This document shows, piece by piece, positions 1 to 31,000 of a stretch of 64,000 nucleotides of DNA. The DNA lies in NCBI GenBank assembly GCA_028280945.1, contig JANQKV010000047.1, positions 93,291-157,290 of the forward strand, given 5' to 3'. The stretch comes from Opitutaceae bacterium. GTDB lineage: Bacteria > Verrucomicrobiota > Verrucomicrobiia > Opitutales > Opitutaceae. The notes under the pieces were generated by a model. The model did no database searches. It worked only from the letters and a program-made list of their open reading frames with translations, and was not told where the DNA came from. Position numbers and translations under genes: made by a program. The stretch's first letter is position 1, and each line of letters begins with the position of its first letter.

Positions 1-505
1 TCGTTTTACCGGAGGCACCGCCTGCTCCGCCGGCGAACTCCTCCCTCGCCTGCGCAAGTCGGAGGGACCCGACCGCTGGCAATATTTCATGCAGTTGGCA
101 TCGATCCTTTCTAAAGACAACACACCGGAAACATTGGGCAGTCGCGGCTACGCCATGCCGAGTCTGCCAGCCGGCTCGGAGCGCATGCAGCGTGCCTGCC
201 AGATCATTTTCGAACGTTTCGACGAGGACCTGTCCCACGAACAACTCGCCGCGGAACTGAACCTGACCACGGCCTACTTCAGTCGTCAGTTCAAGCGAGC
301 CACCCGCCGAACTTACACGGACTTTTTGGGTGAGGTGCGCTTGGGACATGCCTGTCGGCTTCTGCTGGAAACACACCGCGCCATCGTCGATATCGCCTTC
401 GACAGCGGGTTTCGGAATCTGTCCAATTTCAACCGCCGCTTTCTGCGCACGTATGGCTGCAGCCCTCGCGAATACCGCAAGCGGCACGCCCAGCGCCCCA
501 GCTAG
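1..505 (+). CDS. AraC-family transcriptional regulator, C-terminal part (5' truncated by window edge)
   Basis: The ORF track starts this protein at 89, but the frame is open back to base 2 and reads FTGGTACSAGELLPRLRKSE, the normal linker of AraC regulators, so the true start lies outside the window. The visible part holds the two helix-turn-helix motifs of the AraC/XylS DNA-binding domain: LSHEQLAAELNLTTAYFSRQFK, then IVDIAFDSGFRNLSNFNRRFLRTYGCSPREYRK. The sensory N-terminal domain is missing, so the ligand cannot be guessed. It ends 130 bases before the sugar-acid operon and in the same direction. It is therefore the obvious candidate regulator of that operon, but this is inference from position only. 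Confidence 0.9.
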   Translation, partial: RFTGGTACSAGELLPRLRKSEGPDRWQYFMQLASILSKDNTPETLGSRGYAMPSLPAGSERMQRACQIIFERFDEDLSHEQLAAELNLTTAYFSRQFKRATRRTYTDFLGEVRLGHACRLLLETHRAIVDIAFDSGFRNLSNFNRRFLRTYGCSPREYRKRHAQRPS

Positions 506-545: not shown

Positions 546-561
546 CATTTTGCATGCAATT
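546..561. promoter_or_regulatory. Putative operator, copy 1 (upstream of the sugar-acid operon)
   Basis: CATTTTGCATGCAATT, with the perfect palindrome TTGCATGCAA at its core. The same 16-mer with one substitution (C to T) recurs at 3567-3582 in front of the GH50 gene. Both copies lie in short non-coding gaps 60-75 bases before a start codon, in the same orientation. Shared regulation by one DNA-binding protein is the simplest reading. Part of the motif could instead serve as a promoter element. Confidence 0.6.
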
Positions 562-635
562 AAAATGAGGTTGTGCGTCCCTCGGACTCAATACCCCGAG
601 GGGGGGCCGTGCCTGGCCTGCTTTCCTCCCGCCCT

Positions 636-1811
636 ATGAAAATCACTGCCATCACTCCCTTCGTTGCCTGGATTGGGTTCCGCAACCAGATGCTGGTCAA
701 AGTGGAGGCCGACAACGGACAAACCGGTTGGGGTGAATCGGGGCTCTCTTCACGCGAACAAGCGGTGGCCGGCACGGTAATCCACTTTCGAGAGTTCCTA
801 ATCGGACGTGATCCCCGCCGCATGGGGGCTCTCTGGCAGGAGATGTATCGCGGACAGTATTTTGAGGGAGGACGGGTGCTGGCGGCCGCAATCTCCGCAA
901 TCGATATCGCCCTGCACGATCTGGTGGCGAAATCGCTCGGCGTGCCGGTTTACGAACTTTTGGGCGGAGCGCATCGCGATCGGGTGGAGTGTTTTGCCTG
1001 CATCCCCAACAATGCGCCTCCGGCCGATTACCGGGCCTTGGCCAAAAAACTGGTCGATGCCGAATGGAACTCAGTGCGCACCGGATTCGCCGCCGCCGCC
1101 GGCGGCAACTACACCGATCCAGCCGATACGACCTACGATGTGCGCACTGCGGGCGTAACCACATCGGAGGGGCTGCTCGCCGTGCGGGACGCGATGGGAC
1201 CAAGCACCATGATCGGGTGTGACGTGCATCACCGCCTCTCGGTGGCCGAAGCCGCGACCTGGCTGCAACGCCTGCCCGCCGGCACCTTGGATTATGTCGA
1301 GGAACCCATTCGTGACGAGTCGCCCGAGGCCTATGAAGCGCTCCGCCGCTTGACTGATGTGCCCTTCGCCATCGGCGAGGAGTTTGCCAGCAAGTGGGCC
1401 TTCAAACCCTACATCGAGCGCAACATCCTGCAGTTTGCGCGTGTGGATATTTGCAACGTAGGGGGATTCACCGAAGCCTCCAAAGTTGCCGCCATGGCCG
1501 AAGCCAACTACATCGATCTGCTGTTGCACAATCCGCTCGGCCCGATCTGCACCGCCGCCTCGGTGCACCTGGCCGCCGCTACACCCAACTTCTCCTACCT
1601 TGAGTCCCGCACCTCGCCGACTGAGTCGTTGCCCACGGTCGATGACGACGTGTTTCCGACTCGGCTCTATCTGGCTGACAATGCCTACCCCCTGCCAACG
1701 GCGCCCGGTCTCGGCATCGAGGTAAACGAAGACGTGCTGCAAGCTTCCCCGCCCAAACTGTGGGAACCACCCCGGCTTTGGCGCTCCGACGGCAGCTACA
1801 CCAATTGGTAA
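636..1811 (+). CDS. Enolase-superfamily sugar-acid dehydratase/cycloisomerase (galactonate dehydratase-like)
   Basis: I start the gene at the ATG at 636 (MKITAITPFVAW), which matches the start of DgoD-type proteins; the 63 upstream bases of the ORF, opening with GTG 573, look untranslated. The 391-residue product has the mandelate racemase/muconate lactonizing enzyme layout: an N-terminal capping domain, then a barrel with metal ligands in CDVHH, VEEP and IGEE, and the galactonate-dehydratase-like HNPLGPI segment with its histidine. The C-terminus (LWRSDGSYTNW) also resembles DgoD. The KxN segment of DgoD (FKLNG) appears as VRTGF, so specificity may differ. A 2-keto-3-deoxy acid kinase and aldolase follow. 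Next to an agarase, a 3,6-anhydro-L-galactonate cycloisomerase, also an enolase-superfamily enzyme, is a serious alternative to D-galactonate dehydratase. Confidence 0.82.
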   Translation: MKITAITPFVAWIGFRNQMLVKVEADNGQTGWGESGLSSREQAVAGTVIHFREFLIGRDPRRMGALWQEMYRGQYFEGGRVLAAAISAIDIALHDLVAKSLGVPVYELLGGAHRDRVECFACIPNNAPPADYRALAKKLVDAEWNSVRTGFAAAAGGNYTDPADTTYDVRTAGVTTSEGLLAVRDAMGPSTMIGCDVHHRLSVAEAATWLQRLPAGTLDYVEEPIRDESPEAYEALRRLTDVPFAIGEEFASKWAFKPYIERNILQFARVDICNVGGFTEASKVAAMAEANYIDLLLHNPLGPICTAASVHLAAATPNFSYLESRTSPTESLPTVDDDVFPTRLYLADNAYPLPTAPGLGIEVNEDVLQASPPKLWEPPRLWRSDGSYTNW

Positions 1812-1818
1812 CCGCGCC

Positions 1819-2802
1819 ATGCCACTCTCCAAACTCACACCCCGGACTTCCATCATCACGATCGGTGAAGTGCTGTTGCGCTTGAGTGTTCCTGCCGGGC
1901 AAACCCTGCGCGACCTGCCGGTACTCGCCACCCACCCCGCCGGGGCCGAAGCCAATGTAGCCCGCAATCTCGCGCAGCTCGGCCACCAAACTCATTTCAT
2001 CAGCCGTCTGCCGGACCAACCACTCGCCCGTGGCATCGCCGACGAACTGCGTCGCGACGGCGTGGACATCTCCGCACTCCTTTGGCAGCCGACGGGACGA
2101 CTCGGCACATTCTTTGTCCAACAGGGCTCACCTCCTCGCGCCACCAAGGTGATCTATGATCGGGCTGACTCTTGCGCCACTCACCTCTCGCCGGATGACC
2201 TCAAGGCAGCCTGCTTCGTCGACGCATCTCTTCTGCATGTCTCCGGCATCACGTGCGGTCTTTCTCCCAACGCACTGGCGACGGTCGAACGCGCGGTTGA
2301 GCTAACGCACAAAACTGGAGGAACCGTAAGCTTCGATGTCAATCACCGCGACAAGGTTTGGTCGGCTGCCACCGCCGCCGAAGTATTGCGTCCCCTGCTG
2401 GCCAAGACCGACGTGCTGTTCTGCTCCCACCGCGATGCGGCCAAACTGTGGAGCATCAACGGCAGCGGCAGCCAAGTCCTGCATGATCTAGCCGACGTCA
2501 CGAACGCGGCCCACATTGTGAGTTCCAACGGCGCCGCGGGCACCTGGGCTTGGCAACACGGCAGGGTTTCCCACTGTCCGGCCGAACCCGTCACGATCGT
2601 TGATCGCCTTGGCGCCGGTGACGCGCTCGCCGCCGGTTATCTGCACCGCCTCCTGCACGACGATACTGCCACCGCGCTGCGAGCCGGCTCGATCATGGCA
2701 GCACTGGCCCTCACGTGTGCCGGAGATTGTCCCACCATCGATGCCTTGGAACTCTTCTGTACCATTAATTCGGATACATTTTCCTCTGCCCCCAACCGAT
2801 GA
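1819..2802 (+). CDS. kdgK: PfkB-family sugar kinase, probably 2-keto-3-deoxygluconate/galactonate kinase
   Basis: The 327-residue protein is a ribokinase/PfkB-fold kinase. It opens with ITIGEVLLRLSVPAGQTLRDLP, typical of KdgK-type proteins, and ends with the PfkB signature DRLGAGDALAAGYL, in which Asp268 is the expected catalytic base and GAGD forms the anion hole. It phosphorylates a 2-keto-3-deoxy sugar acid at the expense of ATP, giving the substrate for the next gene's aldolase. It starts 7 bases after the dehydratase stop and its last 4 bases overlap the aldolase start (ATGA), so the three are almost certainly co-translated. Substrate stereochemistry (gluconate or galactonate series) cannot be read from sequence. 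Confidence 0.88.
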   Translation: MPLSKLTPRTSIITIGEVLLRLSVPAGQTLRDLPVLATHPAGAEANVARNLAQLGHQTHFISRLPDQPLARGIADELRRDGVDISALLWQPTGRLGTFFVQQGSPPRATKVIYDRADSCATHLSPDDLKAACFVDASLLHVSGITCGLSPNALATVERAVELTHKTGGTVSFDVNHRDKVWSAATAAEVLRPLLAKTDVLFCSHRDAAKLWSINGSGSQVLHDLADVTNAAHIVSSNGAAGTWAWQHGRVSHCPAEPVTIVDRLGAGDALAAGYLHRLLHDDTATALRAGSIMAALALTCAGDCPTIDALELFCTINSDTFSSAPNR

Positions 2803-3452
2803 ACCCGTCTCCCGAACCACTGGCGCGCCTTGCTGAAAATCGCTTGTTATCGGCCGCCGTGATTACGGAGGTCGATCACGCCGTGCCGCTCGCAAACGCA
2901 CTCTTGGCGGGCGGCCTTGACATCATGGAGGTCACCTTCCGCCACCCACACGCCGCCGAGTGCATTCGGCGAATTCGGGCCGAGGTTCCCGACATGCAAG
3001 TGGGAGCCGGCACCCTTTTGTCCACCGCCCAAATCGACGAGGCCCGGTCGGCCGGCGCGACCTTCGGCCTCTCCCCGGGGTTTAATCCCACCGTGGTGGA
3101 GGCGGCGGCATCCGACGCGTTTCCTTTTATCCCCGGAGTGGCCACCCCGGGTGAAATTGAGCAGGCCTTGGAACGCGGTTGTGAAACGGTCAAAGTCTTC
3201 CCCATCCATGCTTTGGGTGGCGTTGCATTCCTCAATGCCTTGGTGGGACCGTATCGCCACACCCCCTTGCGCATCGTGCCACTTGGGGGCATCAACGAGC
3301 AGGATCTCGCTTCCTACATCTCTCACTCCCTGGTGGTCGCGGCAGGAGGCTCCTGGCTGACCGATCCCAACCTGGCGACCACTGGCCAGTGGGAGCAAAT
3401 CACCGCGATGACTCGACGTGCCCGGACGATCGCCCAAGCGGGTCGCTCCTGA
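2799..3452 (+). CDS. eda: 2-dehydro-3-deoxy-phosphogluconate (KDPG/KDPGal-type) aldolase
   Basis: At 217 residues it has the usual length of class I KDPG aldolases. The conserved glutamate of MEVTFRH and the Schiff-base lysine in ETVKVFP (Lys132, matching Lys133 of the E. coli enzyme) are present, with GAGTLLS and the phosphate-binding VPLGGI segment between and after them. It splits a 2-keto-3-deoxy-6-phospho sugar acid into pyruvate and glyceraldehyde 3-phosphate. It overlaps the kinase gene by 4 bases and closes the three-gene operon. No hairpin terminator is evident before the GH50 gene, which has its own upstream motif 115 bases downstream. Confidence 0.9.
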   Translation: MNPSPEPLARLAENRLLSAAVITEVDHAVPLANALLAGGLDIMEVTFRHPHAAECIRRIRAEVPDMQVGAGTLLSTAQIDEARSAGATFGLSPGFNPTVVEAAASDAFPFIPGVATPGEIEQALERGCETVKVFPIHALGGVAFLNALVGPYRHTPLRIVPLGGINEQDLASYISHSLVVAAGGSWLTDPNLATTGQWEQITAMTRRARTIAQAGRS

Positions 3453-3566
3453 TCAGGGACGGACGCAACCAGTCTATCGAGCGGAAACCAAGGCCTCAAT
3501 CCTTGGGCTCTGCCACTGTTTCAGACTCTTTCGAGGCGCTGGTAAAATTTCCGAGCGATACTGGTT

Positions 3567-3582
3567 CATTTTGTATGCAATT
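3567..3582. promoter_or_regulatory. Putative operator, copy 2 (upstream of the GH50 gene)
   Basis: CATTTTGTATGCAATT matches 15 of 16 bases of the motif at 546-561 and is followed by another partial half-site, TTTTGCATC. It lies 44 bases before the chosen GH50 start, in an intergenic stretch. Together the two copies tie the agarase to the sugar-acid operon. Confidence 0.6.
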
Positions 3583-3625: not shown

Positions 3626-5893
3626 ATGTCTTCACCGCTCCCTCGCGTTCTCGCTTCCTCACTCATGATCGGGCTCGCGCTCGCTCCCCTCACCGCGGCC
3701 ATTGAAGCCCAACCCACCCAGCAATTTGTCGCGAAATCGGCAAAACTCACCGGACTGCCCACCGGGGACGGCGGCAGTGCCGTGCAAGTGGATTTCATGC
3801 CTCACGTCGATTACTCCGGCTTCGACATCGTTCCCAACAAACCGTGGGACTGGTCGGAGCTTGATGAGGCGGCCCTGCTGTTGGAGGTCAGCAACCCCGG
3901 ACCGTTTTCGATTCATCTTTATGTGGCAGTCAAAACTGCCGATGGGGGCTTCGGCACCCGCAGCGTCAACATCCCGGTCGGTTTTCATGGCAACCTCTCT
4001 TATCCGCTGCAATCGCCTGCCCTCACAATCGACAGCGGCCTGCGTGACGACCCGTCACCGTGGCTGAACGACAACAAGCACCTGATCTGGATGTGGGGGA
4101 GCCCCGGCCATCAGCTCGACCTCTCGGCCGTTTCCATGATCAGCGTCTACGTGAACGAAAACGTGGACGCAAAGCAGTTGCTGGTGCACGACGTGATGAC
4201 GGCGGTCGACCAACCGCGCAACCGGGAGTTCCTGACCGGCATCGTGGATGAGTTTGGTCAAAACGCCCGCGAAGATTTTCCCCTCAAGGTGCATTCCACC
4301 GAAGAGCTGCGGATGCTTGCCGCCGCAGAACTGGACCAGCTCGCTCAACGCCGACCTCCCGCAGGCCGCAGTCGCTTCGGCGGCTGGAAAAGCGGACCCA
4401 AGCTTGAGGCCACCGGTTTCTTCCGCACCGCCAAGGTCGACGGCCGCTGGTGGTTGATCGATCCGGAAGGTTACCTCTACTTTGCCAGCGGCATCGCCAA
4501 CATTCGGATGGAAAACACCACCACCGTAACGGGCATCGACTTTCGCGACGACTCCATCCGCACCATCGATCCGGATGATACCACCCCGGAGGATTCGCGC
4601 GGCATCGTAGGCACCAGTTCGGACGTGCGTTCGACGCGATATGTGACCTCGCCGCTGCGGCACAACATGTTCGCCTCGCTGCCCGATTACGATGACCCTC
4701 TCGCCCAGCACTATAGCTATCGACGCTCGGTGCACACCGGTCCGGTGCCCCATGGTGAAACCTTCAGTTTTTATCAGGCCAACTTGGAGCGACGGTATGG
4801 TGCTGATTTTTGGAACCAGTGGCTCGAGACCACGGTGAACCGGATGCTCGACTGGGGTTTCACCTGCCTTGGCAATTGGACCGACGCTGACTTCTTCGAC
4901 AACGGCCGCATGCCCTACTTCGCCAATGGTTGGATCATCGGTGACTTCAAGACGGTGACCTCGGGCCACGATATCTGGTCTCCCCTGCCCGACGTGTTTG
5001 ACCCGGTTTTTGAGGAACGCGCCAGGATCACCGTCGCCGAAATCGCCGCCAACGTGAAGGACAGCCCGTGGTGCGTCGGTGTCTTCATCGACAACGAAAA
5101 GAGCTGGGGACGCACGGGGGGCACAGTCGAGCAACACTACGGCATCGTCATCAACACCCTCAAACTCCCGGTCGCCGATAGCCCCTCAAAGGCCGCGTTC
5201 ACCGCTGCGCTGCAGCAGCAATACGGCAAGATAAAGAAGCTCAACCGGGCATGGGGCATCAAGCTGGACTCCTGGGACGAGTTCTTTGCCGGAGTCACCA
5301 TAACCAAGCACACCCCGAAGGCCGTGGAGGACTATTCCATGCTCCTCAAACTCTACGCGTCCAAGTATTTTGAGATCGTCGATGCTGCCCTCGATGAAGT
5401 GCTGCCCAACCATCTCTACATGGGCGTTCGCATGGCCCACTGGGGCATGACGCCGGAAGTCGTCGAGGCATGCAAAAAGTATACCGATGTCATCAGCTAC
5501 AACTGCTACAAGGAAGGCCTCATCACTCCTTCGTGGGAGTTTCTCGCTGAGATCGATATGCCCAGCATCATCGGCGAATTCCACGTCGGGGCCACGTCCG
5601 ACACGGGCCTTTACCACCCCGGGTTGATTCATGCCACGGACCAGGCTGACCGGGCCCGGATGTATGAGGTCTACATGAATACCGTGCTGGCCAGTCCCTA
5701 CTTTGTGGGCGCCCACTGGTTCCAATACATCGACTCCCCGATCACGGGTCGCGCCTACGACGGCGAAAACTACAACGTCGGATTCGTGGGCATCACCGAT
5801 GTCCCTTACCCGGAAATGATCAACAAGACCCGGGAGTTCCATCGCGACCTCTATGAAAAGCGACTGCGCTTGAGCGAATCCGCCGTGAAGTGA
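3626..5893 (+). CDS. Secreted GH50 beta-agarase-like glycoside hydrolase
   Basis: The ORF runs back to 3389, overlapping the aldolase, but the ATG at 3626 begins a clear signal peptide (MSSPLPRVLASSLMIGLALAPLTAAIEA), giving a 755-residue precursor. The N-terminal third is a beta-sandwich-like region (residues about 40-230). The GH50 barrel then opens with the family-typical GFFRTAKVDGRWWLIDPEG. The two predicted catalytic glutamates are Glu491 in FIDNEKSWG (acid/base) and Glu651 in SIIGEFHVGA (nucleophile). Known GH50 enzymes cleave agarose and neoagaro-oligosaccharides, releasing neoagarobiose (galactose plus 3,6-anhydro-L-galactose). The enzyme would act in the periplasm or outside the cell and feed the preceding sugar-acid operon. 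Exact substrate (agar, porphyran or another galactan) is not provable here. Confidence 0.88.
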   Translation: MSSPLPRVLASSLMIGLALAPLTAAIEAQPTQQFVAKSAKLTGLPTGDGGSAVQVDFMPHVDYSGFDIVPNKPWDWSELDEAALLLEVSNPGPFSIHLYVAVKTADGGFGTRSVNIPVGFHGNLSYPLQSPALTIDSGLRDDPSPWLNDNKHLIWMWGSPGHQLDLSAVSMISVYVNENVDAKQLLVHDVMTAVDQPRNREFLTGIVDEFGQNAREDFPLKVHSTEELRMLAAAELDQLAQRRPPAGRSRFGGWKSGPKLEATGFFRTAKVDGRWWLIDPEGYLYFASGIANIRMENTTTVTGIDFRDDSIRTIDPDDTTPEDSRGIVGTSSDVRSTRYVTSPLRHNMFASLPDYDDPLAQHYSYRRSVHTGPVPHGETFSFYQANLERRYGADFWNQWLETTVNRMLDWGFTCLGNWTDADFFDNGRMPYFANGWIIGDFKTVTSGHDIWSPLPDVFDPVFEERARITVAEIAANVKDSPWCVGVFIDNEKSWGRTGGTVEQHYGIVINTLKLPVADSPSKAAFTAALQQQYGKIKKLNRAWGIKLDSWDEFFAGVTITKHTPKAVEDYSMLLKLYASKYFEIVDAALDEVLPNHLYMGVRMAHWGMTPEVVEACKKYTDVISYNCYKEGLITPSWEFLAEIDMPSIIGEFHVGATSDTGLYHPGLIHATDQADRARMYEVYMNTVLASPYFVGAHWFQYIDSPITGRAYDGENYNVGFVGITDVPYPEMINKTREFHRDLYEKRLRLSESAVK

Positions 5894-5923: not shown

Positions 5924-7819
5924 ATGATTTCACGCCTCGTCCTTCTCGCATTGCTCGGCGCAACCGGCGGAGCGTTGGAGGCCGGCGAAATCCGATTCCA
6001 AGAGATGACCGCCGCCGTCGGTCTCGAGACTCCTCCGACCTGGAAATACGGCGGACCGACCATCGCCGATCTCAACCACGACGGCCACTACGACTTGTTG
6101 CTCGGCAGCCACGATCGCATGCCGATCGAGCTTTGGTGGGGCCGGTCCAACGGCACCTTCAAACGCCACCCGTCCGAAATCCTGCCTCGCGCCGATGTCC
6201 ACGGCATGGCCGCGGGCGACTACGACCTGGACGGTGATGCCGACCTCGTCGTGATGCTGGGCGGCGGCAACGGCCTGAATCCCCAACCCCCGCGCTTGTT
6301 TCGCAACGACGCTGGTTCGTTTGTTGACGTGACCACGGCAGCCGGGCTCGCCGGCATGGGTGCCCGGGGACGATCCCCGCGATGGATCGACCTGAATGCC
6401 GACGGATTCCTGGATCTGATCCAGATCAACGCGGCCCAGATGGCGGGGGAATCAGGTCCCCGCAATCTGGTGTTTCGCAATCAAGGCGACGGCACCTTTG
6501 CCCACCAACCCGACACCGGCATCGAACACGTCGAGGCCGAGCGTGTCCTGATTACCGATTTCACCGGCGATTTTGTGCCCGATCTGGTGGCGTTCACGCC
6601 ACTGAGCCTGTGGCGCGGAGGAGACAACTTCAGCTTCACCGAAGTGACCGACGACTACCTTCCCGCCGACTTCCATCAGCACGATTTCATCCTCGCGGCG
6701 GCGTCAGCCGACATCGACAACGACGGCGACTTCGATCTCTATTTGGCCCGCGGCAAAACCCACTACCAGATCGCCAACAATTCCCTCCACTTCGACCGGG
6801 AAAATCAACGTGTCGACATTCGCGACGAAGGCAACGAAGGGCGCGACGGGATGCGGTTCTCTGCTCCTGTCGGCGTGACCCTGAGCGACTTCTGGCATTG
6901 GCCGCGGGCCCGTGACTTGGTGATGCCGGTTTTTCTAGGTGAAGCGAAAGTGCGGCACGACCCGCCAACCCGCCCGGCCAGCTTCTCACCGGAGGATGCC
7001 CCGGGCTTTCCGACCGAGCTCACGGAAAACGGTTGGTACCTTGGCCACCTCGGCGAAGGACGCTGGCGATTCGCCTGGAATCTCAACGGCAACCTGGCGT
7101 GGGGCGTGCGGGCGTCCGTGCGCGGGGTAACGTCGGTCACGCCCGACTTCGAACCTCAGAACCGCCGGGTATCCGATATCTTGTTACGCAACGACGGGAA
7201 TCGCTTCACCGACCTGAGTGTGAATCTCCCCGCTCCCACCCGCGACAACAACTGGGGTGTGGCGACCGGCGACTTTGACGGTGATGGCCGGACGGACTTT
7301 TTCGTTCACCGGTTTGGCACCCTGCGCAAGCGCATCGCCGACGTGCTGCTCGCAAATCAAGGTGAGGGCCAGTTCGACGCCGTGACCGACCACGGCGCCA
7401 ACGTGCTGCCTGAAGAGAGCCATGGTGACATGGGAGCCGCCTTCGATTTTGATGGTGACGGTCGGGTGGATCTTCTGAGTGGTGACGACGACAATGGTCG
7501 CTGGCGGCTCTACCGGAACGTCACGTCCCTCAATGCCAACTACCTCAATGTGCGGGTGCTCTATTCCCCCGGCGGGGTGGATCCGCTCGGGGCGAGAGTA
7601 AACCTCACCACCACCGGCGGCACCCAATGGCGTGAAGTGCAGTCGGGAAGCGCCGCCCACTCGCAAAGCCAGCTGAACATCTTGAGTTTTGGGATCAGTC
7701 CCGCCGATGACGTGGAATCGGTCACCGTGCGCTGGCGCGACGACCACACCTCCACCCTGACTGCCCCCAAACCGAACCAAACGATCATCGTCGGCGCAAA
7801 GATCCGCGATCCGCGCTAG
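5924..7819 (+). CDS. Secreted FG-GAP/VCBS-repeat protein with C-terminal ASPIC/UnbV domain
   Basis: This 631-residue protein has a short signal peptide (MISRLVLLALLGATGGALEA) and then at least six calcium-binding repeat loops of the type DLNHDGHYDLLLG, DYDLDGDADLVV, DIDNDGDFDLYL, DFDGDGRTDFFV and DFDGDGRVDLLS. These form an integrin-alpha-like beta propeller. The last ~80 residues (NYLNVRVLYSPGGVDPLGARVNL ... VTVRWRDDHTSTL) match the ASPIC/UnbV module of CRTAC1-like proteins. Such proteins are very common in Verrucomicrobiota and Planctomycetota; the ligand is unknown. It follows the GH50 gene by 30 bases and may be co-transcribed. Its stop codon is interlocked with the stop of the convergent AraC gene. 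Confidence 0.9.
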   Translation: MISRLVLLALLGATGGALEAGEIRFQEMTAAVGLETPPTWKYGGPTIADLNHDGHYDLLLGSHDRMPIELWWGRSNGTFKRHPSEILPRADVHGMAAGDYDLDGDADLVVMLGGGNGLNPQPPRLFRNDAGSFVDVTTAAGLAGMGARGRSPRWIDLNADGFLDLIQINAAQMAGESGPRNLVFRNQGDGTFAHQPDTGIEHVEAERVLITDFTGDFVPDLVAFTPLSLWRGGDNFSFTEVTDDYLPADFHQHDFILAAASADIDNDGDFDLYLARGKTHYQIANNSLHFDRENQRVDIRDEGNEGRDGMRFSAPVGVTLSDFWHWPRARDLVMPVFLGEAKVRHDPPTRPASFSPEDAPGFPTELTENGWYLGHLGEGRWRFAWNLNGNLAWGVRASVRGVTSVTPDFEPQNRRVSDILLRNDGNRFTDLSVNLPAPTRDNNWGVATGDFDGDGRTDFFVHRFGTLRKRIADVLLANQGEGQFDAVTDHGANVLPEESHGDMGAAFDFDGDGRVDLLSGDDDNGRWRLYRNVTSLNANYLNVRVLYSPGGVDPLGARVNLTTTGGTQWREVQSGSAAHSQSQLNILSFGISPADDVESVTVRWRDDHTSTLTAPKPNQTIIVGAKIRDPR

Positions 7820-8688
7820 GACTTTGCCTCGAACCGCGGCAAGTCGGTCGTCTTTCGGCGCCACTCCCGTGGAGTCAGACCAAACTTGGCCTTAAACTGA
7901 CGATTAAAAATCGAGAGGTTATTGAAACCCGACTCATAACTGGCTTCGGCAATGGTGAGGTCGCGGTTGGACTCGAGCAGGCGGCACACTTTCGCCAACC
8001 GGAGGTTGATCACGGTTTGGCTGAACGTGCTTCCCGTCGCCCGCCGAAACATTCGACTCAAGGCTGAGGCACTCATCCCCAGCCTGGTGGCAATTTCGGT
8101 TTGGGAAACGGTCTGGTCATAGGTCGCCATCAAGAGGATCCAGGCCTCCCGCATGCGCACGCTGGATGCCGCGCTGGCACCAGCACGATAGCGTTCATCC
8201 ATGAGTGACTCGACCGCACGGTCCTCGGCCAAGTCGCCCAGCAGTTCCAGCAACTCAACGATCCGCGCCGATCGCCGGGTCGTTTCCAAGCGTGCCAGAC
8301 GTGATTCAATCCGCGAAGCAATCTTGCGGGAAAACCGCAGTCCCTGTCGGGCATCCGTCAGTAGGCGGGAGATGCCTGCCATTTCCGGCAACGTGACCAG
8401 GTGACTCAAAATCTCACCACGAAACTGAAGCACCCGCGAAGCGGCGCCGGCGTGCAATCGGTCCAGCTGAAAGCAATGGGGCAGGCCCGGGCCAAAACAA
8501 AACACCTCCCCCGGTTCGAATGCTCCCCAGTGATCACCCACCACACGCGTACCCTGTCCCCGCTCGATAAAAACCACCTCGATCTCCGGGTGGAAATGAT
8601 AAGGCGTATGGAAATCTCGACCTCGGTATCGATAGGTCAGCAGGGAATCCTCTGGCAGGATGGGGATGTGTTCTCTGATGGCTTTGAT
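7816..8688 (-). CDS. AraC-family regulator with N-terminal cupin domain; start codon missing or shifted
   Basis: The C-terminal half is a normal AraC DNA-binding domain (TEIATRLGMSASALSRMFR, then ASYESGFNNLSIFNRQFKAKFGLTPREWR). The track starts at GTG 8577, but the frame upstream continues with clear family sequence (AIREHIPILPEDSLLTYRYR, then FHTPYHFHPEIE), the normal N-terminus of cupin AraC regulators. Back to the in-frame TGA there is no ATG, GTG or TTG ahead of that segment. An ATG at 8692-8690 is out of frame by one base: removing the T at 8689 would give Met-Ile-Lys-Ala and a normal ~291-residue protein. Either an ATC start at 8688 is used, or a one-base insertion has broken the gene, or only the shorter GTG form is made. 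It is divergent from the methyltransferase pair. Confidence 0.75.
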   Translation of the reverse strand: MKAIREHIPILPEDSLLTYRYRGRDFHTPYHFHPEIEVVFIERGQGTRVVGDHWGAFEPGEVFCFGPGLPHCFQLDRLHAGAASRVLQFRGEILSHLVTLPEMAGISRLLTDARQGLRFSRKIASRIESRLARLETTRRSARIVELLELLGDLAEDRAVESLMDERYRAGASAASSVRMREAWILLMATYDQTVSQTEIATRLGMSASALSRMFRRATGSTFSQTVINLRLAKVCRLLESNRDLTIAEASYESGFNNLSIFNRQFKAKFGLTPREWRRKTTDLPRFEAKS

Positions 8689-8740: not shown

Positions 8741-8861
8741 GGCAGCAGCTCACTAGATTGTCATACGCTCATGATGGCATACTGGACGCCCAATCCCTCG
8801 GGTGCTTGGCCACCAAGGCGACGCCCGGCAACCCCACCTTTCCCATCCACCGAGTGGTCCC

Positions 8862-9923
8862 ATGATCTCGTCAATCGCCCCCTCCACCGCGCGCATGACC
8901 AAGCGCGAAATCATCACCGCAGTGCTGCAAGGCCAGCAACCGGACTACACTCCATGGTCGTTCCGTTTCACCCAGGAACCCGAAGCTCACCTCTGCCAGC
9001 ACTTCGGCTGTGAACCGGAGGATCTGTTGGCCCACACCGGCTGTCACATTCTCGAATTGGGCAGCCCGATCGGGTTCTTCGAGGACATCGGCAACAACCG
9101 GTTTCGCGACGTCTTCGGCGTGGTGTGGGACCGCTCGCAGGACAAGGACATCGGCCTGCCGGAAAACCAGCTTCTGGCCGAACCCGAGGACCTCGGGAAC
9201 TACACGTTACCCGATCCGTGCGACCCACGTTTCTTTGCTGACATCAAACGTCGCACCGAGCGCTACCCGGACCGCTTTCGGTTGTTCACCCTGGGTTTCT
9301 CGCTGTTCGAACGCGCCTGGACCCTGCGCGGCATGGAAGACCTGTTGATGGATTTCATCGAAGAGCCGGACTTTGTTCACGCACTCTTCGAGAAGATTGC
9401 GGACTACAACATCGCCCAAGTGAAAGAAGCGCTGAAATATGACATCGACGCGGTCTACTACGGCGACGACTGGGGCCAGCAACGCGGACTCATCATGGGC
9501 TACGACCGGTGGAAGGAATTCATCTATCCGCAGCTCCAACGCATGTATGGTGTCGTGAAGGACGCGGGTAGGTTCCAATTCATCCACTCCTGCGGTGACG
9601 TCGATGAGCTGTTCCCGGACCTGATCGATATTGGACTCAATTGCTTCAACCCGTTCCAACCCGAGGCCATGGACGTCTACGAAATCCATCGTGACTACCG
9701 CGACCGACTGTCGTTCTGGGGCGGCCTCTCCACGCAAAGCACCCTGCCCTACGAGAGCGCCGCCACCGTGCGCGCCGAAAGCCGCAAGCTGCTCGAAATG
9801 GGACGCGCCGGCAGCTTCATCTTCTCGCCCTCCCATTCCGTTGAAAGCGACGTGCCGTTCAAAAACATCCTCGCGTTCATCGAGGAGGCACACGCCCAAC
9901 CCGCCGCCGCCGGCCAAATCTGA
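8862..9923 (+). CDS. UroD-family (MtaA/MtbA-like) methyltransferase
   Basis: The protein (353 residues from ATG 8862; ATG 8895, MTKREIITAVLQG, is an equally plausible start) belongs to the uroporphyrinogen decarboxylase superfamily. It resembles the corrinoid-dependent methyltransferase branch rather than HemE: it carries the zinc-type His-x-Cys motif in FIHSCGDVDELF and a further cysteine in LNCFNPFQPE, plus the branch-typical IGFFEDIGNNRFRDVFGVVWDR and YYGDDWGQQRG segments. The next gene, 18 bases downstream, encodes a corrinoid protein. The pair should transfer a methyl group from an O- or N-methylated substrate to cobalamin, or from cobalamin to another acceptor. The methyl donor is unknown. 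No tetrahydrofolate methyltransferase or corrinoid activase is visible in the window. Confidence 0.85.
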   Translation: MISSIAPSTARMTKREIITAVLQGQQPDYTPWSFRFTQEPEAHLCQHFGCEPEDLLAHTGCHILELGSPIGFFEDIGNNRFRDVFGVVWDRSQDKDIGLPENQLLAEPEDLGNYTLPDPCDPRFFADIKRRTERYPDRFRLFTLGFSLFERAWTLRGMEDLLMDFIEEPDFVHALFEKIADYNIAQVKEALKYDIDAVYYGDDWGQQRGLIMGYDRWKEFIYPQLQRMYGVVKDAGRFQFIHSCGDVDELFPDLIDIGLNCFNPFQPEAMDVYEIHRDYRDRLSFWGGLSTQSTLPYESAATVRAESRKLLEMGRAGSFIFSPSHSVESDVPFKNILAFIEEAHAQPAAAGQI

Positions 9924-9941
9924 ACTCATCCTTCTCCCACG

Positions 9942-10571
9942 ATGAACCCACTGCTGGATTCTGTCGCGCAGGCCATCATGGCCTGCAACCGCAAGGCCGC
10001 CAAAGTCGCCACCCAGGCTGCCTTGGACGCCAGCCTCGATGCGGAGACCGTGCTCGCCGCCCTGATGCGCGGCATGGAGGACGTCGGCCAACGCTTTAAA
10101 GCCAATCGCATCTTTGTACCCGAAGTGCTCGTTGCCGCCCGTGCGATGAAAACGAGCCTCGGACTGTTGGAACCGCATCTCGTCGCGTCCGGTGTTCAGG
10201 CTACGCACAAGATCGTGATCTGCACTGTCGAAGGTGACCTGCACGACATCGGCAAAAACCTCGTCGCCATGATGCTCCAAGGGGCGAACTTTGAGGTCAT
10301 CGACCTGGGCACCAATGTCAGCGCCCGAGTGGTGATTGACGCTGCGATTGAACAAAAAGCCGACCTCATTGGGCTTTCTTCCTTGCTGACCACCACCATG
10401 CCAGCGATGCGCGATACCGTCGCCCGCATCAAGGACAGCGCCTTTAATGGTCCGGTCATGGTGGGCGGCGCTCCTGTCACCGAACGATTTGCCGCAGAGA
10501 TCGCCGCCGATGGCTATTCCCCCAGCGCGGCTTATGCCGTGGACCTCGCCTGCCGACTGGTCGCCGCCTGA
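9942..10571 (+). CDS. Corrinoid (B12-binding) methyl-carrier protein
   Basis: The 209-residue protein has the two-part architecture of MtaC/MtbC/MtmC carriers. Residues 1-85 form the helical B12-binding-2 cap (MRGMEDVGQRFKANRIFVPEVLVAARAM). Residues 88-209 form the cobalamin-binding Rossmann domain, with the signature DLHDIGKN (His101 as lower axial cobalt ligand), then SLLTTTM and GGAPVT. It shuttles a methyl group between two methyltransferases in the cytoplasm. It is 18 bases behind the UroD-type methyltransferase, so the two surely form one operon under the divergent AraC regulator. The B12-binding motif is complete, so it looks functional. Confidence 0.93.
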   Translation: MNPLLDSVAQAIMACNRKAAKVATQAALDASLDAETVLAALMRGMEDVGQRFKANRIFVPEVLVAARAMKTSLGLLEPHLVASGVQATHKIVICTVEGDLHDIGKNLVAMMLQGANFEVIDLGTNVSARVVIDAAIEQKADLIGLSSLLTTTMPAMRDTVARIKDSAFNGPVMVGGAPVTERFAAEIAADGYSPSAAYAVDLACRLVAA

Positions 10572-26906: not shown

Positions 26907-27451
26907 TGCGGCCGAAATTTACCACCCTCGAGGGCGCGCTGGAATTCGTGCAGCGGGTAAGGACGTGCACGCTGTTCAGCAACAAAGTTGAAGGGCTTCC
27001 CGCGTTGTGGGACTACGTCGACCTGCCCGCCGATCACGGTGGACGCACCAAGTGGGGCGCTCGCATGGAAGCAATCTGGGAGTGGAAGAACGAGCTGCCG
27101 GCCACCTATCCGGATGAAGTCTTCTACGGTAAAATTCCGGGAGGTCTGGCCGTGCTCATGTCGATGAAACACCTGCGGGAAAAGCACTATCCCGAACATC
27201 ACCAGCCGGTGAACACGTGCTCCGAACTCGCCCGGCAGGTGTATGAAATCATCCGGCTCGATCCGGGAGAAACCGCCGAGATTCGCACCATCGCCATCGA
27301 ACGCACCCACTGCTCAAAAAGCAGATTCGACACGGCAATGAAACAACTGCAGGTCACGCTCAACATCGCCCGCGACCCCGCCGCCGGCACCGAACGCGAC
27401 CGCTGGCTCCCTTTCCGAGAGGCCTATCCGGACTTTTTCACCGGCAGTTGA
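26906..27451 (+). CDS. AlkZ-related winged-helix-like hypothetical protein
   Basis: Two starts are possible: ATG 26900 (MVMRPKF) and ATG 26906 (MRPKFTTLEGALEFVQRVRTCTLFSNKVEGLPALWD), the latter in a TGATG overlap with the toxin stop. The ~181-residue protein resembles small proteins annotated as AlkZ-related, with features such as WEWKNELPATYPDEVFYGKIPGGLAVLMSM and a C-terminal helical part with QVYEIIRLDPGETAEIR. The reference glycosylase AlkZ unhooks DNA crosslinks, but this stand-alone form is uncharacterised, and I recall the name from family resemblance only. Its 3' end overlaps the convergent rhamnosidase gene by 28 bases. Tight coupling to the PIN toxin could be accidental. Confidence 0.7.
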   Translation: MRPKFTTLEGALEFVQRVRTCTLFSNKVEGLPALWDYVDLPADHGGRTKWGARMEAIWEWKNELPATYPDEVFYGKIPGGLAVLMSMKHLREKHYPEHHQPVNTCSELARQVYEIIRLDPGETAEIRTIAIERTHCSKSRFDTAMKQLQVTLNIARDPAAGTERDRWLPFREAYPDFFTGS

Positions 27452-29838
27452 AGAACCTGGTCCCCGGACCGGAGCGGATGGCTCTCGGCTCCCCAAATCA
27501 ATGAGCCAGAAAGCTTTTCCGGCAGAGAAACCTCAGCCCTGACAGTGTCATCGTCAGATCTTTGGTAATGCACCCGGATCATTCCGGCGGGATGACACAC
27601 TTCCGCCCGGGTATTTGTCAGATCGCCCAACGCCGGGCGCACTTCTACGGCAGCAAAACCTGTCTCGGCCGGGCGAATCCCTGCCGTGCTGGCCAACAGA
27701 TGAAAAAGTGGGTGTCCGGCCCAGGCATGGGCATCACTACGGCTTTCGATGTGATGCTCCGGAAACGTCGTGAGCCCGGTGTCGAGCATCTCCTGCCAAC
27801 GATCGAGATTAGCCAAAATCAAGTCGCCGCGCCCGGCTTGGCGATAGGCCTCAAACACATAAAACTGAAAATACAGCGTACCTTGAATCAGCGTCTCGTC
27901 CGCATGGATTAACTCCGCGATCCGCTCGGCTTCCGCGCCCTTCACGGCACCACACAAAATCGCGAAAGCGTTCGTATGCTGGCTGAACATTTCCTTGGCC
28001 CGGGTTTCGGCAAAAAGACCGCGAGTCTCATCAAATCCGTGCTTGTGTGCGGATGCCTTGAGTTGGGCGGAAATCCGTCGATAACGCTCCAGGTCTCCGC
28101 TGAATTCGACCGCCTCCATCAAGTCCACCGCCCGATCGAGCGTGTAGGCCAACAGCAATGTCTGGTGGATCGAGCCGCCCGTGGAAGACCCGGGCGGGGA
28201 GCCGACGTCAAAACCGATCGCCCCCCCGTCCACGTGATTCCAAAACGGCAGCGGCCCCATTAGGCCGCTCTCATCCACCCGCGCCAAAAACCACTCCAAC
28301 GTAAACACAATGCCCGGCACCAGGGGGGCCAAAAACTCCCGGTCGCCCCGATACATCAAAAAGTCGTGGACCATACCGACGTAAAGCAGTGCGAACGGAG
28401 GGATGATCTGCGCGCCATCCGTGGGATGGGCACTCTTGGTCAGTCCATGGTATTGCCGCGACCGATGGAACTGGAGGATCGCGTTTCGCATCAGGCGGTC
28501 GTCGCCTGACATGTAGAGCGAAATCAACGCCTGGATCCGCGTGTCACCGATATACTGAACTTGCTCGTAATACGGACAGTCCATGTAGGACTCCAGGGCA
28601 CACACCCGCATGGTGCGCCAGGAGGCATTGAGAATGGCGGCGTGGCTCGGGTCGGAACTCACAAAACTGCCGCGGCGTTCCAGCGGATAACCGACAAACT
28701 GGTGACCAAATCCGTCCAATCGCAGCGGTTCATCGGCCGTCTTTACCGAGATTTGCACGTAACGAAACACCCGGATCCACTGCGGTTCATAAACCCGGTT
28801 TTCACCACCGTCCGCAATGACCCGATCAAAGTAACCCTTCATGATTTTTCCCGTGATGTCATCCCGGTTGCCCTTGCCGCCTTCCGGCCGAAACAAGGCC
28901 TCCTGGTAACGCACCTCGATCTCGGCTCCCTCGCCCCTCGAGAAGGCCAATTGGGTGAACCCCATGGTCAATTCTTCATGGTCCAACAACAGGGTGGCCT
29001 CTGCGTTCGCCGGAATCTTCAGCGGCCACCGCGGCGACGCGTCCGTCAAGGCATCGGCATTTGCCAAACCGGCGGTTCGCCGCACGACCCAATGGGTCGC
29101 GTCCCGCATTTCCAGCGCCGGGATACTCCGAGGAATCAACGCCCACGGTGTGCCCTTCCACGTATCGAGGCGGCCGTGGGTCGCCTTGCCGATGATCCGG
29201 GCCGGCGCCCAATCACTCGCGTTGAATCCCACTTCATTCCACCCCCATTCATGAGTCGCCGCATCAAATGCTTCCGTGGCTCCCGCAATGTAACCTCCGC
29301 CGACAGACTCAGCCGTGTGAGTGATCGATGCATGGGCGGTGCTCCGTTTGGCCAACCACCGGCCATCAGTCTTGAGCGGTTCACCCTCGAGGTTGGACCC
29401 GGCCAAGACAAAGCCCGGCTGCACCGAAATCTGCCGAGCAGGCAATTGCCAGGTGGGATTCCACACCGAGGCGGCGATCACATTGGCACCTGGTCGCAGG
29501 TAAGGCACGAGGTTGATTGACTCGTAATTCCAATGATCGCGATCGCCAACCGCCGGGCCGATGCCGACCAGCACCCCGTTCACGTAGAGTCGATAACGCG
29601 GGTCCGCTGAAACATGCACCAGGAAGGATTCGGGCATCTCCGCCAATTCGAACTCGCGCCGAAACAACAACACGCCGTCCGCATTCCCTTGCCCATCGTC
29701 AACCGTGATCCAGTCCGCAAACCCTGGTGACTCCAGATCAGCAACCCGTTCGACAAAGGGACGGGAGGATTCGGCAATGACACCGACACCGGGAAGCAAC
29801 GCCAGGAAACCGAGGGTGACGCAACGGGGCAGCAGCAT
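27424..29838 (-). CDS. Secreted GH78 alpha-L-rhamnosidase family protein
   Basis: The track begins at 30063 inside purM; ATG 29838 starts a signal peptide (MLLPRCVTLGFLALLPGVGVIAES) and an 804-residue precursor. N-terminal beta-sandwich modules carry the family's FRREFEL and DPRYRLYVNGVLVGIGPAVGDRDHWNYE. The (alpha/alpha)6 barrel begins near residue 440 with the hallmark ESYMDCPYYEQVQYIGDTRIQALISLYMSGDDRL, then SAHPTDGAQIIPPFALLYVGMVHDF and a late HAWAGHPLFHLLASTAGIRP. GH78 enzymes remove terminal L-rhamnose from plant or algal glycans by inversion. The gene is 55 bases downstream of purM, same strand, but functionally unrelated, and overlaps the convergent AlkZ-related gene by 28 bases. Confidence 0.88.
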   Translation of the reverse strand: MLLPRCVTLGFLALLPGVGVIAESSRPFVERVADLESPGFADWITVDDGQGNADGVLLFRREFELAEMPESFLVHVSADPRYRLYVNGVLVGIGPAVGDRDHWNYESINLVPYLRPGANVIAASVWNPTWQLPARQISVQPGFVLAGSNLEGEPLKTDGRWLAKRSTAHASITHTAESVGGGYIAGATEAFDAATHEWGWNEVGFNASDWAPARIIGKATHGRLDTWKGTPWALIPRSIPALEMRDATHWVVRRTAGLANADALTDASPRWPLKIPANAEATLLLDHEELTMGFTQLAFSRGEGAEIEVRYQEALFRPEGGKGNRDDITGKIMKGYFDRVIADGGENRVYEPQWIRVFRYVQISVKTADEPLRLDGFGHQFVGYPLERRGSFVSSDPSHAAILNASWRTMRVCALESYMDCPYYEQVQYIGDTRIQALISLYMSGDDRLMRNAILQFHRSRQYHGLTKSAHPTDGAQIIPPFALLYVGMVHDFLMYRGDREFLAPLVPGIVFTLEWFLARVDESGLMGPLPFWNHVDGGAIGFDVGSPPGSSTGGSIHQTLLLAYTLDRAVDLMEAVEFSGDLERYRRISAQLKASAHKHGFDETRGLFAETRAKEMFSQHTNAFAILCGAVKGAEAERIAELIHADETLIQGTLYFQFYVFEAYRQAGRGDLILANLDRWQEMLDTGLTTFPEHHIESRSDAHAWAGHPLFHLLASTAGIRPAETGFAAVEVRPALGDLTNTRAEVCHPAGMIRVHYQRSDDDTVRAEVSLPEKLSGSLIWGAESHPLRSGDQVLQLPVKKSG

Positions 29839-29893
29839 CCGGCCAAGCAGCCAGATGCCCGTTATCGGCGCAAGCGGCGGAGATTCGTATCGT

Positions 29894-31000
29894 TCAGCGC
29901 ACCTGCAGCGATTCACCGCCCCAGGACAGGCCCAGCGAAGGCACCTCCACAGCCTTCCGGTCGCCGTCCTTGAACATCCGGCCCGCGATCCAGGCGTCAT
30001 AACCGGTTGCCTGCGCCGCGGCCACGGTGGCGTCGGCGTCAGCCGGATCCACGTAAGCCGCAAAACCCACTCCCATGTTGTAGGTCGAGTAGGCCTCCTT
30101 CAGCTCAATCGGGCCTTTCTCCATCAGGAATCTGAACAGCGCCGGAGTCTCACGGGGCTCGGTGATCTCGTAGACAAATGGTTCATCGAGGCGCATGAGT
30201 TTGCGCCAGCCATGACCCGTCACGTGGGAAACATAGTTGAGCTTGATCCCGCGTTGCTGGCACTCGCGGACAAAAGCGACGTAGATGACCGAAGGCGCCA
30301 GCAAGGCCTGGCCGTAGGTGCGATCGTCGCCGTGCCCAATCGGCGTGGCATAACCATCCGGCAACTGATCAGCGATTTTCCGGCACAAGGTCAGGCCGTT
30401 GGTCTGCACACCGGATGAAGCGAGAAATATCAACACGTCGCCATCCTTGGCGTCGCCGGTGATGCGCAGCGACTTGGGCGCCAGCCGGCCCACCGCCGAA
30501 CCCGCGAGGCAGATCGTATCCGGTTCGATGATCCCCTTCAGGGTCGGTGTCTCGCCTCCGCCCCAGACCGCACCCGACATCCGGCAGGCCTCGGCCCAGC
30601 CGTCCACCAGCGCCTGGGTGCGCTTGGCGTCGCTGAACCACCCCGAGTCTCCCACGGCCGCATGCATCGCCAGCGAGGTGGGCAGCGCCCCGCAGGTGAT
30701 CAGGTCGTTGGCAATGGTGGCCACCGTGTCGATGGCGACCTCGCGGTAGAAGTTCTCGCCCGACTGCGCGTAAACCGCATCGGCCACGAGGTTCTTGGTG
30801 CCCAGGCCTTCCTCCACGTGGGCGAGGTAGTGGTCGTCCGCCTCCATGAGGTAGCAGCTTTCCCCCCGGGTCTCGGCGGGTTCGCGATAGCCGTGGTTGC
30901 CCAGCAGATCGGAAGTGGTTTTGGCCGCCTTTTGGCAGGCACGTTTAAACGCATCGAGCTCGTCGTAGCGCACGCCGGAGGATTCGTAGGAAAGACTCAT
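29894..31000 (-). CDS. purM: Phosphoribosylformylglycinamidine cyclo-ligase (AIR synthetase)
   Basis: The 368-residue protein begins MSLSYESSGVRYDELDAFKRACQKAAKTT and has the PurM/AIR-synthase pattern: HVEEGLGTKNLVAD (ATP site), VAIDTVATIANDLITCGALP, VWGGGETPTLKGII and, in the C-terminal domain, SHVTGHGWRKLMR and NMGVGFAAYV. It closes the imidazole ring of 5-aminoimidazole ribonucleotide from FGAM with ATP, the fifth step of purine synthesis. Slightly longer than E. coli PurM (about 345). An ORF6N gene lies between it and purF, with which it shares strand, so the ancestral purF-purM unit seems to have been interrupted. AT-rich repeats begin at its very first base. Confidence 0.9.
   Translation of the reverse strand: MSLSYESSGVRYDELDAFKRACQKAAKTTSDLLGNHGYREPAETRGESCYLMEADDHYLAHVEEGLGTKNLVADAVYAQSGENFYREVAIDTVATIANDLITCGALPTSLAMHAAVGDSGWFSDAKRTQALVDGWAEACRMSGAVWGGGETPTLKGIIEPDTICLAGSAVGRLAPKSLRITGDAKDGDVLIFLASSGVQTNGLTLCRKIADQLPDGYATPIGHGDDRTYGQALLAPSVIYVAFVRECQQRGIKLNYVSHVTGHGWRKLMRLDEPFVYEITEPRETPALFRFLMEKGPIELKEAYSTYNMGVGFAAYVDPADADATVAAAQATGYDAWIAGRMFKDGDRKAVEVPSLGLSWGGESLQVR

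Follow-up and report, generated by a model that had tools for sequence, protein, structure and literature searches.

A palindromic motif before the sugar-acid operon and the GH50 agarase gene of an Opitutaceae bacterium as the probable operator of a local FCD-GntR repressor

A stretch of 64,000 nucleotides from an Opitutaceae bacterium (assembly GCA_028280945.1, contig JANQKV010000047.1, positions 93,291 to 157,290 of the forward strand), referred to here as the window, carries two copies of a 16-bp motif, one before an enolase-superfamily/KDG-kinase/KDPG-aldolase operon and the other before a GH50 agarase gene. The two copies, operators A and B, are very probably the sites of a local FCD-GntR repressor that coordinates agar/porphyran digestion with sugar-acid catabolism, and the inducer is probably a sugar-acid intermediate. 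The computational evidence comprises the sites themselves, their rarity and clustering in the genome, the family and predicted fold of the regulator, the palindromes in the own promoters of its clade and the shared targets in other genomes.

The motif pair and its rarity in the genome

The motif CATTTTG[C/T]ATGCAATT was located on the + strand at 546-561 and 3567-3582, with 15 of the 16 bases identical between the sites. The original prediction, made from the letters of the window alone, had described this pair in the same orientation, and the sequences were confirmed. Its description of the core as palindromic or nearly so also held, TTGCATGCAA being perfect and TTGTATGCAA one pair short. The short distance to a start codon was measured as 74 bases for operator A (ATG at 636, enolase-superfamily gene) and 43 bases for operator B (ATG at 3626, GH50). 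According to pattern searches of all 75 contigs of the genome (5.44 Mb), which supplied all genome-wide motif counts, these two are the only matches with two or fewer mismatches, and 34 more places match with exactly three, C36:90262 among them. The genome thus lacks the hundreds of unbiased copies that had been named beforehand as evidence against a regulon.

The origin of the pair was evaluated against chance similarity and against a functionless, locally duplicated promoter segment. The loosened core TTGYRYRCAA had 43 genome copies and the reversed control had 48, so that there was no overall enrichment; this background level speaks for chance, and the loosened count was set aside as uninformative for proving a regulon. 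However, the two copies at two or fewer mismatches are alone in 5.44 Mb, and five of the 43 loosened sites fall within 6.6 kb (C36:90266-96870) around gntR, where 0.05 were expected. The 60-base flanks of operators A and B were 22% and 27% identical, that is, unrelated. Hence, the operators are not a duplicated promoter, and a locally copied segment was ruled out as the origin of both. Moreover, other genera, and also another phylum, keep the palindrome at these targets. Chance or functionless duplication is, on this evidence, extremely improbable.

The stricter core TTGYATRCAA had five genome copies, of which three were in the 6.6-kb stretch, one was at C30:90700 and one was within an open reading frame (ORF) at C31. 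There are exactly two FCD genes in the genome, each with such a site, and four of the five copies lie at one of them or close by. The three-mismatch copy at C36:90262, TTTTTTGCATGCAATA, is a third copy of the motif approximately 3.5-3.6 kb upstream of operator A and outside the window, and its core (C36:90266-90275) lies 94 bp ahead of the ATG of a Zn-dehydrogenase gene (ADH). Furthermore, the promoter of gntR itself carries the related palindromes TTGCGTGCAA (C36:91056) and TTGTACACAA (C36:91091), which are 38 and 73 bp before the ATG. In the searched region around operator B, two sigma-70-like candidates were found against 0.7 expected. Because one candidate ends at 3548 (Table 1), operator B may sit just downstream of the likely transcription start; this placement would fit repression. 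No sigma-70 elements were found at operator A or the ADH site, and a search of plasmids for DNA similar to the GH50 promoter returned none.

The FCD-GntR regulator and the competing binders

The local GntR protein combines an N-terminal GntR winged helix-turn-helix domain (PF00392, E 3.7e-18) with a C-terminal FCD domain (PF07729, E 1.1e-17), each exceeding the curated cut-off. Its AlphaFold2 model had a mean predicted local distance difference test score of 86.5 and six C-terminal helices (83-103, 107-126, 129-146, 150-164, 173-188 and 192-202), and in this model the effector domain has the six helices by which the VanR group is recognized. The nearest PDB folds were FCD regulators, the Atu1419 structures included. 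Among the metal/effector-binding FCD residues, D136, H140 and H180 were invariant in the alignment, and the near-C-terminal His was Asn here and in three of five relatives. All NCBIfam scores were far below the cut-off, so that the protein is no orthologue of a characterised regulator.

A clade set of 36 proteins, composed of the local GntR and relatives from profile and protein searches, was used to scan the 250 bp before each member's own start. The palindrome TTGYNNRCAA was present in the own promoter of 28 members, mostly as ATTGTNNACAAT at -51 to -60, where the sequences were mainly ATTGTTAACAAT, ATTGTCAACAAT or ATTGTTGACAAT. In this frame of reference, the local sites are at -55 and -90. 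Scrambled half-sites were found in 0-2 of the 36 promoters; the exceptions were two permutations, YTGTNNACAR and TYGTNNACRA, whose matches are those sequences themselves. The boxes of the FadR subfamily are TKGT/ACMA with 2-3 nt between them (PMC4494728). The palindrome and the 2-nt spacing were both present here, and the Hirschia and clade sites are exactly TTGT..ACAA, whereas the window sites have TTGC/GCAA in some half-sites. Verrucomicrobial GntR genes form a large clade (L034-L057, L211-L213) whose own promoters have ATTGTNNACAAT at a near-fixed distance of about -36 to -60; genes for pectate lyase, sulfatase and cytochromes of planctomycete type are among the neighbours. Relatives within the order that are 29-41% identical to the local GntR were not at agar loci: planctomycete-type cytochromes, a pectate lyase accompanied by a sulfatase, and sugar transport with ALDH were among their neighbours. 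Nevertheless, it was the own promoters of these relatives that supplied the decisive test for the palindrome.

The original prediction had described a probable regulon operator, with the nearby AraC protein as the nearest candidate binder; in this reading, AraC would activate the operon and GH50. The regulon part was supported, since the motif is rare and located at promoters, and other genomes carry the palindrome at these targets too; the proposed binder was not. The AraC gene that ends at 505 does adjoin operator A, and there are algal galactan loci under the control of AraC-type regulators, one being CgrA of Zobellia, the positive regulator of a carrageenan cluster (PMC5698469). However, TTGYRYRCAA was within approximately 1.5 kb of none of the 19 AraC relatives, and AraC was rejected on this linkage. 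No motif copy precedes the AraC gene itself, and the compact, even-spaced palindrome fits a symmetric dimer, such as a dimeric FCD-GntR. The Lacunisphaera locus described below has the sites, and an AraC homologue was not found in the stretches read there. Binding and activation by AraC are therefore improbable.

The second FCD-GntR gene of the genome (C30:89985-90575) was also considered as the source of the binder, acting alone or with the local GntR. TTGTATACAA, which closely resembles the core, lies in its promoter (C30:90700; region L060:5932-9858), between the gene and a divergent TonB receptor. The encoded protein is only 28% identical to the local GntR and its gene is unlinked, whereas the promoter of the local regulator holds two sites and its closer orthologues are linked to the same targets. 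The second protein is hence an unlikely reader of the window sites, and the local FCD-GntR is retained as their probable binder.

Shared targets in other genomes

Related genomes were named through a genome scan with the enolase-superfamily (MLE) protein, and ORF calls in them were mechanical. A Lacunisphaera metagenome-assembled genome (MAG) encodes homologues of MLE, P450 and GntR that are 74%, 53% and 52% identical, and it has six TTGYATRCAA sites, all between ORFs, against one for the reversed control. The site at L184:6339 is in the middle of the spacer between divergent GH50 and KDPG-aldolase/KDG-kinase genes, the counterparts of both window targets. The remaining sites stand before a TonB-receptor-like gene, a PhoD-like/GH43-like pair, a GH50-like gene, a RhaT-like transporter and, near an ADH relative, unknown genes. 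In the Opitutaceae MAG SI072_bin161 (GntR 60%), TTGTATACAA lies approximately 90 bp before an operon running from ADH (71%), ALDH and MLE-like genes to GntR, and a near-match with a score of 20.0 is shortly upstream of gntR.

The palindrome was also observed beyond the phylum. Hirschia maritima, an alphaproteobacterium, has three palindrome sites in 10.5 kb: one precedes an MLE-ADH-SDR-ALDH operon, another separates gntR from a PhoD-like gene, and the third separates GH50 from a divergent FG-GAP homologue (52%). The GH50-GntR-MLE cluster of Sphingopyxis jiangsuensis (L208) has four intergenic TTGTNNACAA palindromes before GH50 and other genes, those at 5593 and 16400 adjoining GH50 genes. In a Verrucomicrobia MAG (L096/G603), TTGCATACAA lies 81 bp before MLE.

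Several points weigh against the assignment of the operators to the local GntR. In that Verrucomicrobia MAG, a fragmented assembly, no GntR orthologue was detected at E <= 1e-12. MLE-bearing genomes without a GntR orthologue also had a modest palindrome excess (5 vs 2, 9 vs 3, 11 vs 4 and 9 vs 9), and palindrome counts alone therefore prove little. Eight of the 36 clade members lacked an exact own-promoter site. Some half-sites of the window operators are TTGC/GCAA, with C/G where the family boxes have their outer T/A. The Poisson probabilities for the 6.6-kb cluster, 3e-9 for five sites and 2e-5 for the three sites not used in motif definition, are partly post hoc because the motif was defined from two of the five sites. 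Physical binding by GntR, repression as opposed to activation, and the inducer are inferred.

The locus, the proposed mechanism and known systems

The features of the locus are given in Table 1. The MR_MLE enzyme is probably a sugar-acid dehydratase or cycloisomerase. Its best family score was 260.5 against a cut-off of 311; its best PDB match was 3rr1, and Zobellia DauB (5olc) was weaker. The names galactonate dehydratase and anhydrogalactonate cycloisomerase were not adopted at this score. The GH50 protein is the only Agarase_CBM protein of the genome.

Table 1. Coordinates of the motif sites and genes (positions without a prefix are those of the window)
Feature	Position	Strand	Remark
Operator A, CATTTTGCATGCAATT	546..561	+	Candidate; precedes enolase-superfamily/KDG-kinase/KDPG-aldolase operon
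Core of operator A, TTGCATGCAA	550..559	.	Perfect 10-bp palindrome
Operator B, CATTTTGTATGCAATT	3567..3582	+	Candidate; precedes GH50 agarase gene
Core of operator B, TTGTATGCAA	3571..3580	.	Near-palindromic, one pair off perfect
Sigma-70-like promoter candidate, TTCAGA-17-TAAAAT with TG before second hexamer	3520..3548	+	Weak, consensus match alone
AraC-family gene, 3' part	1..505	+	Whole gene L031:17936-18796 (+); adjoins operator A
MR_MLE enolase-superfamily enzyme	636..1811	+	Nearest NCBIfam galactonate dehydratase, below cut-off
PfkB-family kinase, KDG/KDGal-kinase-like	1819..2802	+	Family assignment
KDPG/KHG aldolase	2799..3452	+	Exceeds curated cut-off of TIGR01182
GH50 beta-agarase	3626..5893	+	E = 1.1e-239 to PDB 4bq2, residues 60-747
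FG-GAP/ASPIC-UnbV protein	5924..7819	+	Downstream of GH50; 52% homologue in Hirschia
Zn-dehydrogenase (ADH)	L031:14144-15172	-	Upstream of window
GntR/FCD regulator	L031:15404-16018 = C36:90403-91017	-	Some 2.3-2.9 kb before window base 1
P450	L031:16266-17414	-	PDB 6g5o match, E = 3.5e-105

A ferredoxin gene pairs with the P450 gene (L031:16266-17780), and the P450, ferredoxin and Zn-ADH genes adjoin gntR. PDB 6g5o is the Zobellia porphyran 6-O-methyl-galactose demethylase, and the pair is a probable verrucomicrobial porphyran 6-O-methyl-galactose demethylation system. From its gene content, the locus looks like an agar/porphyran utilisation island. No exact palindrome site was found before the P450 and ferredoxin genes here; hence, these genes may be outside the regulon.

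Other genes of the window were recorded in passing. A second AraC-family gene (7816-8577, - strand) is 35% identical to the first, so that two AraC paralogues bracket the agarase region. A URO-D-family protein followed by a B12-binding protein (8802-10571) resembles a corrinoid methyltransferase pair that may act on O-methyl groups. An alpha-L-rhamnosidase at 27424-30063 (- strand) is a second polysaccharide-degrading activity.

In the proposed mechanism, a GntR dimer would bind the palindrome (W)TTG[C/T]AT[A/G]CAA(W) via two winged helix-turn-helix domains and repress the enolase-superfamily/KDG-kinase/KDPG-aldolase operon, the secreted GH50 agarase, the Zn-dehydrogenase gene and its own gene. 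FCD regulators bind carboxylic acids and then leave the DNA or alter their binding to it. When a red-algal galactan is present, a sugar-derived intermediate would bind the FCD domain and the DNA would be released, so that digestion outside the cell and catabolism inside it would be induced together. The intermediate is probably a sugar acid (such as a galactonate, anhydrogalactonate or 2-keto-3-deoxy sugar acid), since sugar acids are the substrates of the controlled enzymes and are usually what the FCD subfamily senses. This model specifies a single regulator, its operators and no fewer than four target promoters. The palindrome may also serve as a motif for finding other agar/porphyran genes; each of the six Lacunisphaera sites points at a promoter that has a galactan-type enzyme, a transporter or unknown genes next to it.

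A broader reading is tentative, and we place it slightly below an even chance. The galactan module (GH50, the sugar-acid enzymes, the dehydrogenase and a dedicated FCD-GntR that senses a galactan-derived sugar acid) might be mobile and common to Verrucomicrobiota and to the Alphaproteobacteria Hirschia and Sphingopyxis. Regulator and operators would then have travelled and diverged together, the centre of the palindrome being AT in Opitutaceae and NN within TTGTNNACAA elsewhere. If this were true, agar use would be under a master switch of GntR type, whereas the switch known for carrageenan is of AraC type.

Sugar-acid regulons under a local FCD-GntR repressor that also controls its own gene are a well-known kind of system. 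In the literature searched, most subscription journals being outside its scope, no description was found of a GntR operator or regulon through which Verrucomicrobiota control agar breakdown, and the content of the regulon (a secreted agarase together with the intracellular KDGal branch), the operator and the spread over two phyla appear undescribed there. The sugar-acid regulators of the FCD/FadR subfamily (DgoR, UxuR, ExuR and GntR; PMC4494728) share the winged helix-turn-helix and FCD domains, an A/T-rich palindromic operator, autoregulation and sugar-acid targets with the system predicted here from sequence, and the 2-nt operator spacing is that of UxuR, GntR and HypR (PMC4494728). Unlike in those systems, the half-sites here are TTGC/GCAA besides TTGT/ACAA, and the predicted regulon includes a secreted agarase. 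The VanR-type Atu1419 of Agrobacterium binds the 10-mer ATGTATACAT, which overlaps the -10 box (PMC7797058). It shares the six-helix C-terminal domain (predicted here) and a 10-bp palindromic operator, whereas it is approximately 20% identical to the present GntR and controls hydroxycinnamate degradation. The porphyran 6-O-methyl-galactose demethylation cluster (PMC10033563) contains the three gene types that adjoin gntR here (P450, ferredoxin and Zn-ADH); the present ADH differs in having no PDB relative at 1e-50, and the host phylum here is Verrucomicrobiota. The carrageenan regulon of Zobellia galactanivorans (PMC5698469) likewise couples algal galactan hydrolases with anhydrogalactose/KDGal catabolism, a co-regulation that is predicted here, but it relies on the AraC-type activator CgrA and serves carrageenan, whereas the present system would rely on GntR and serve agar/porphyran.

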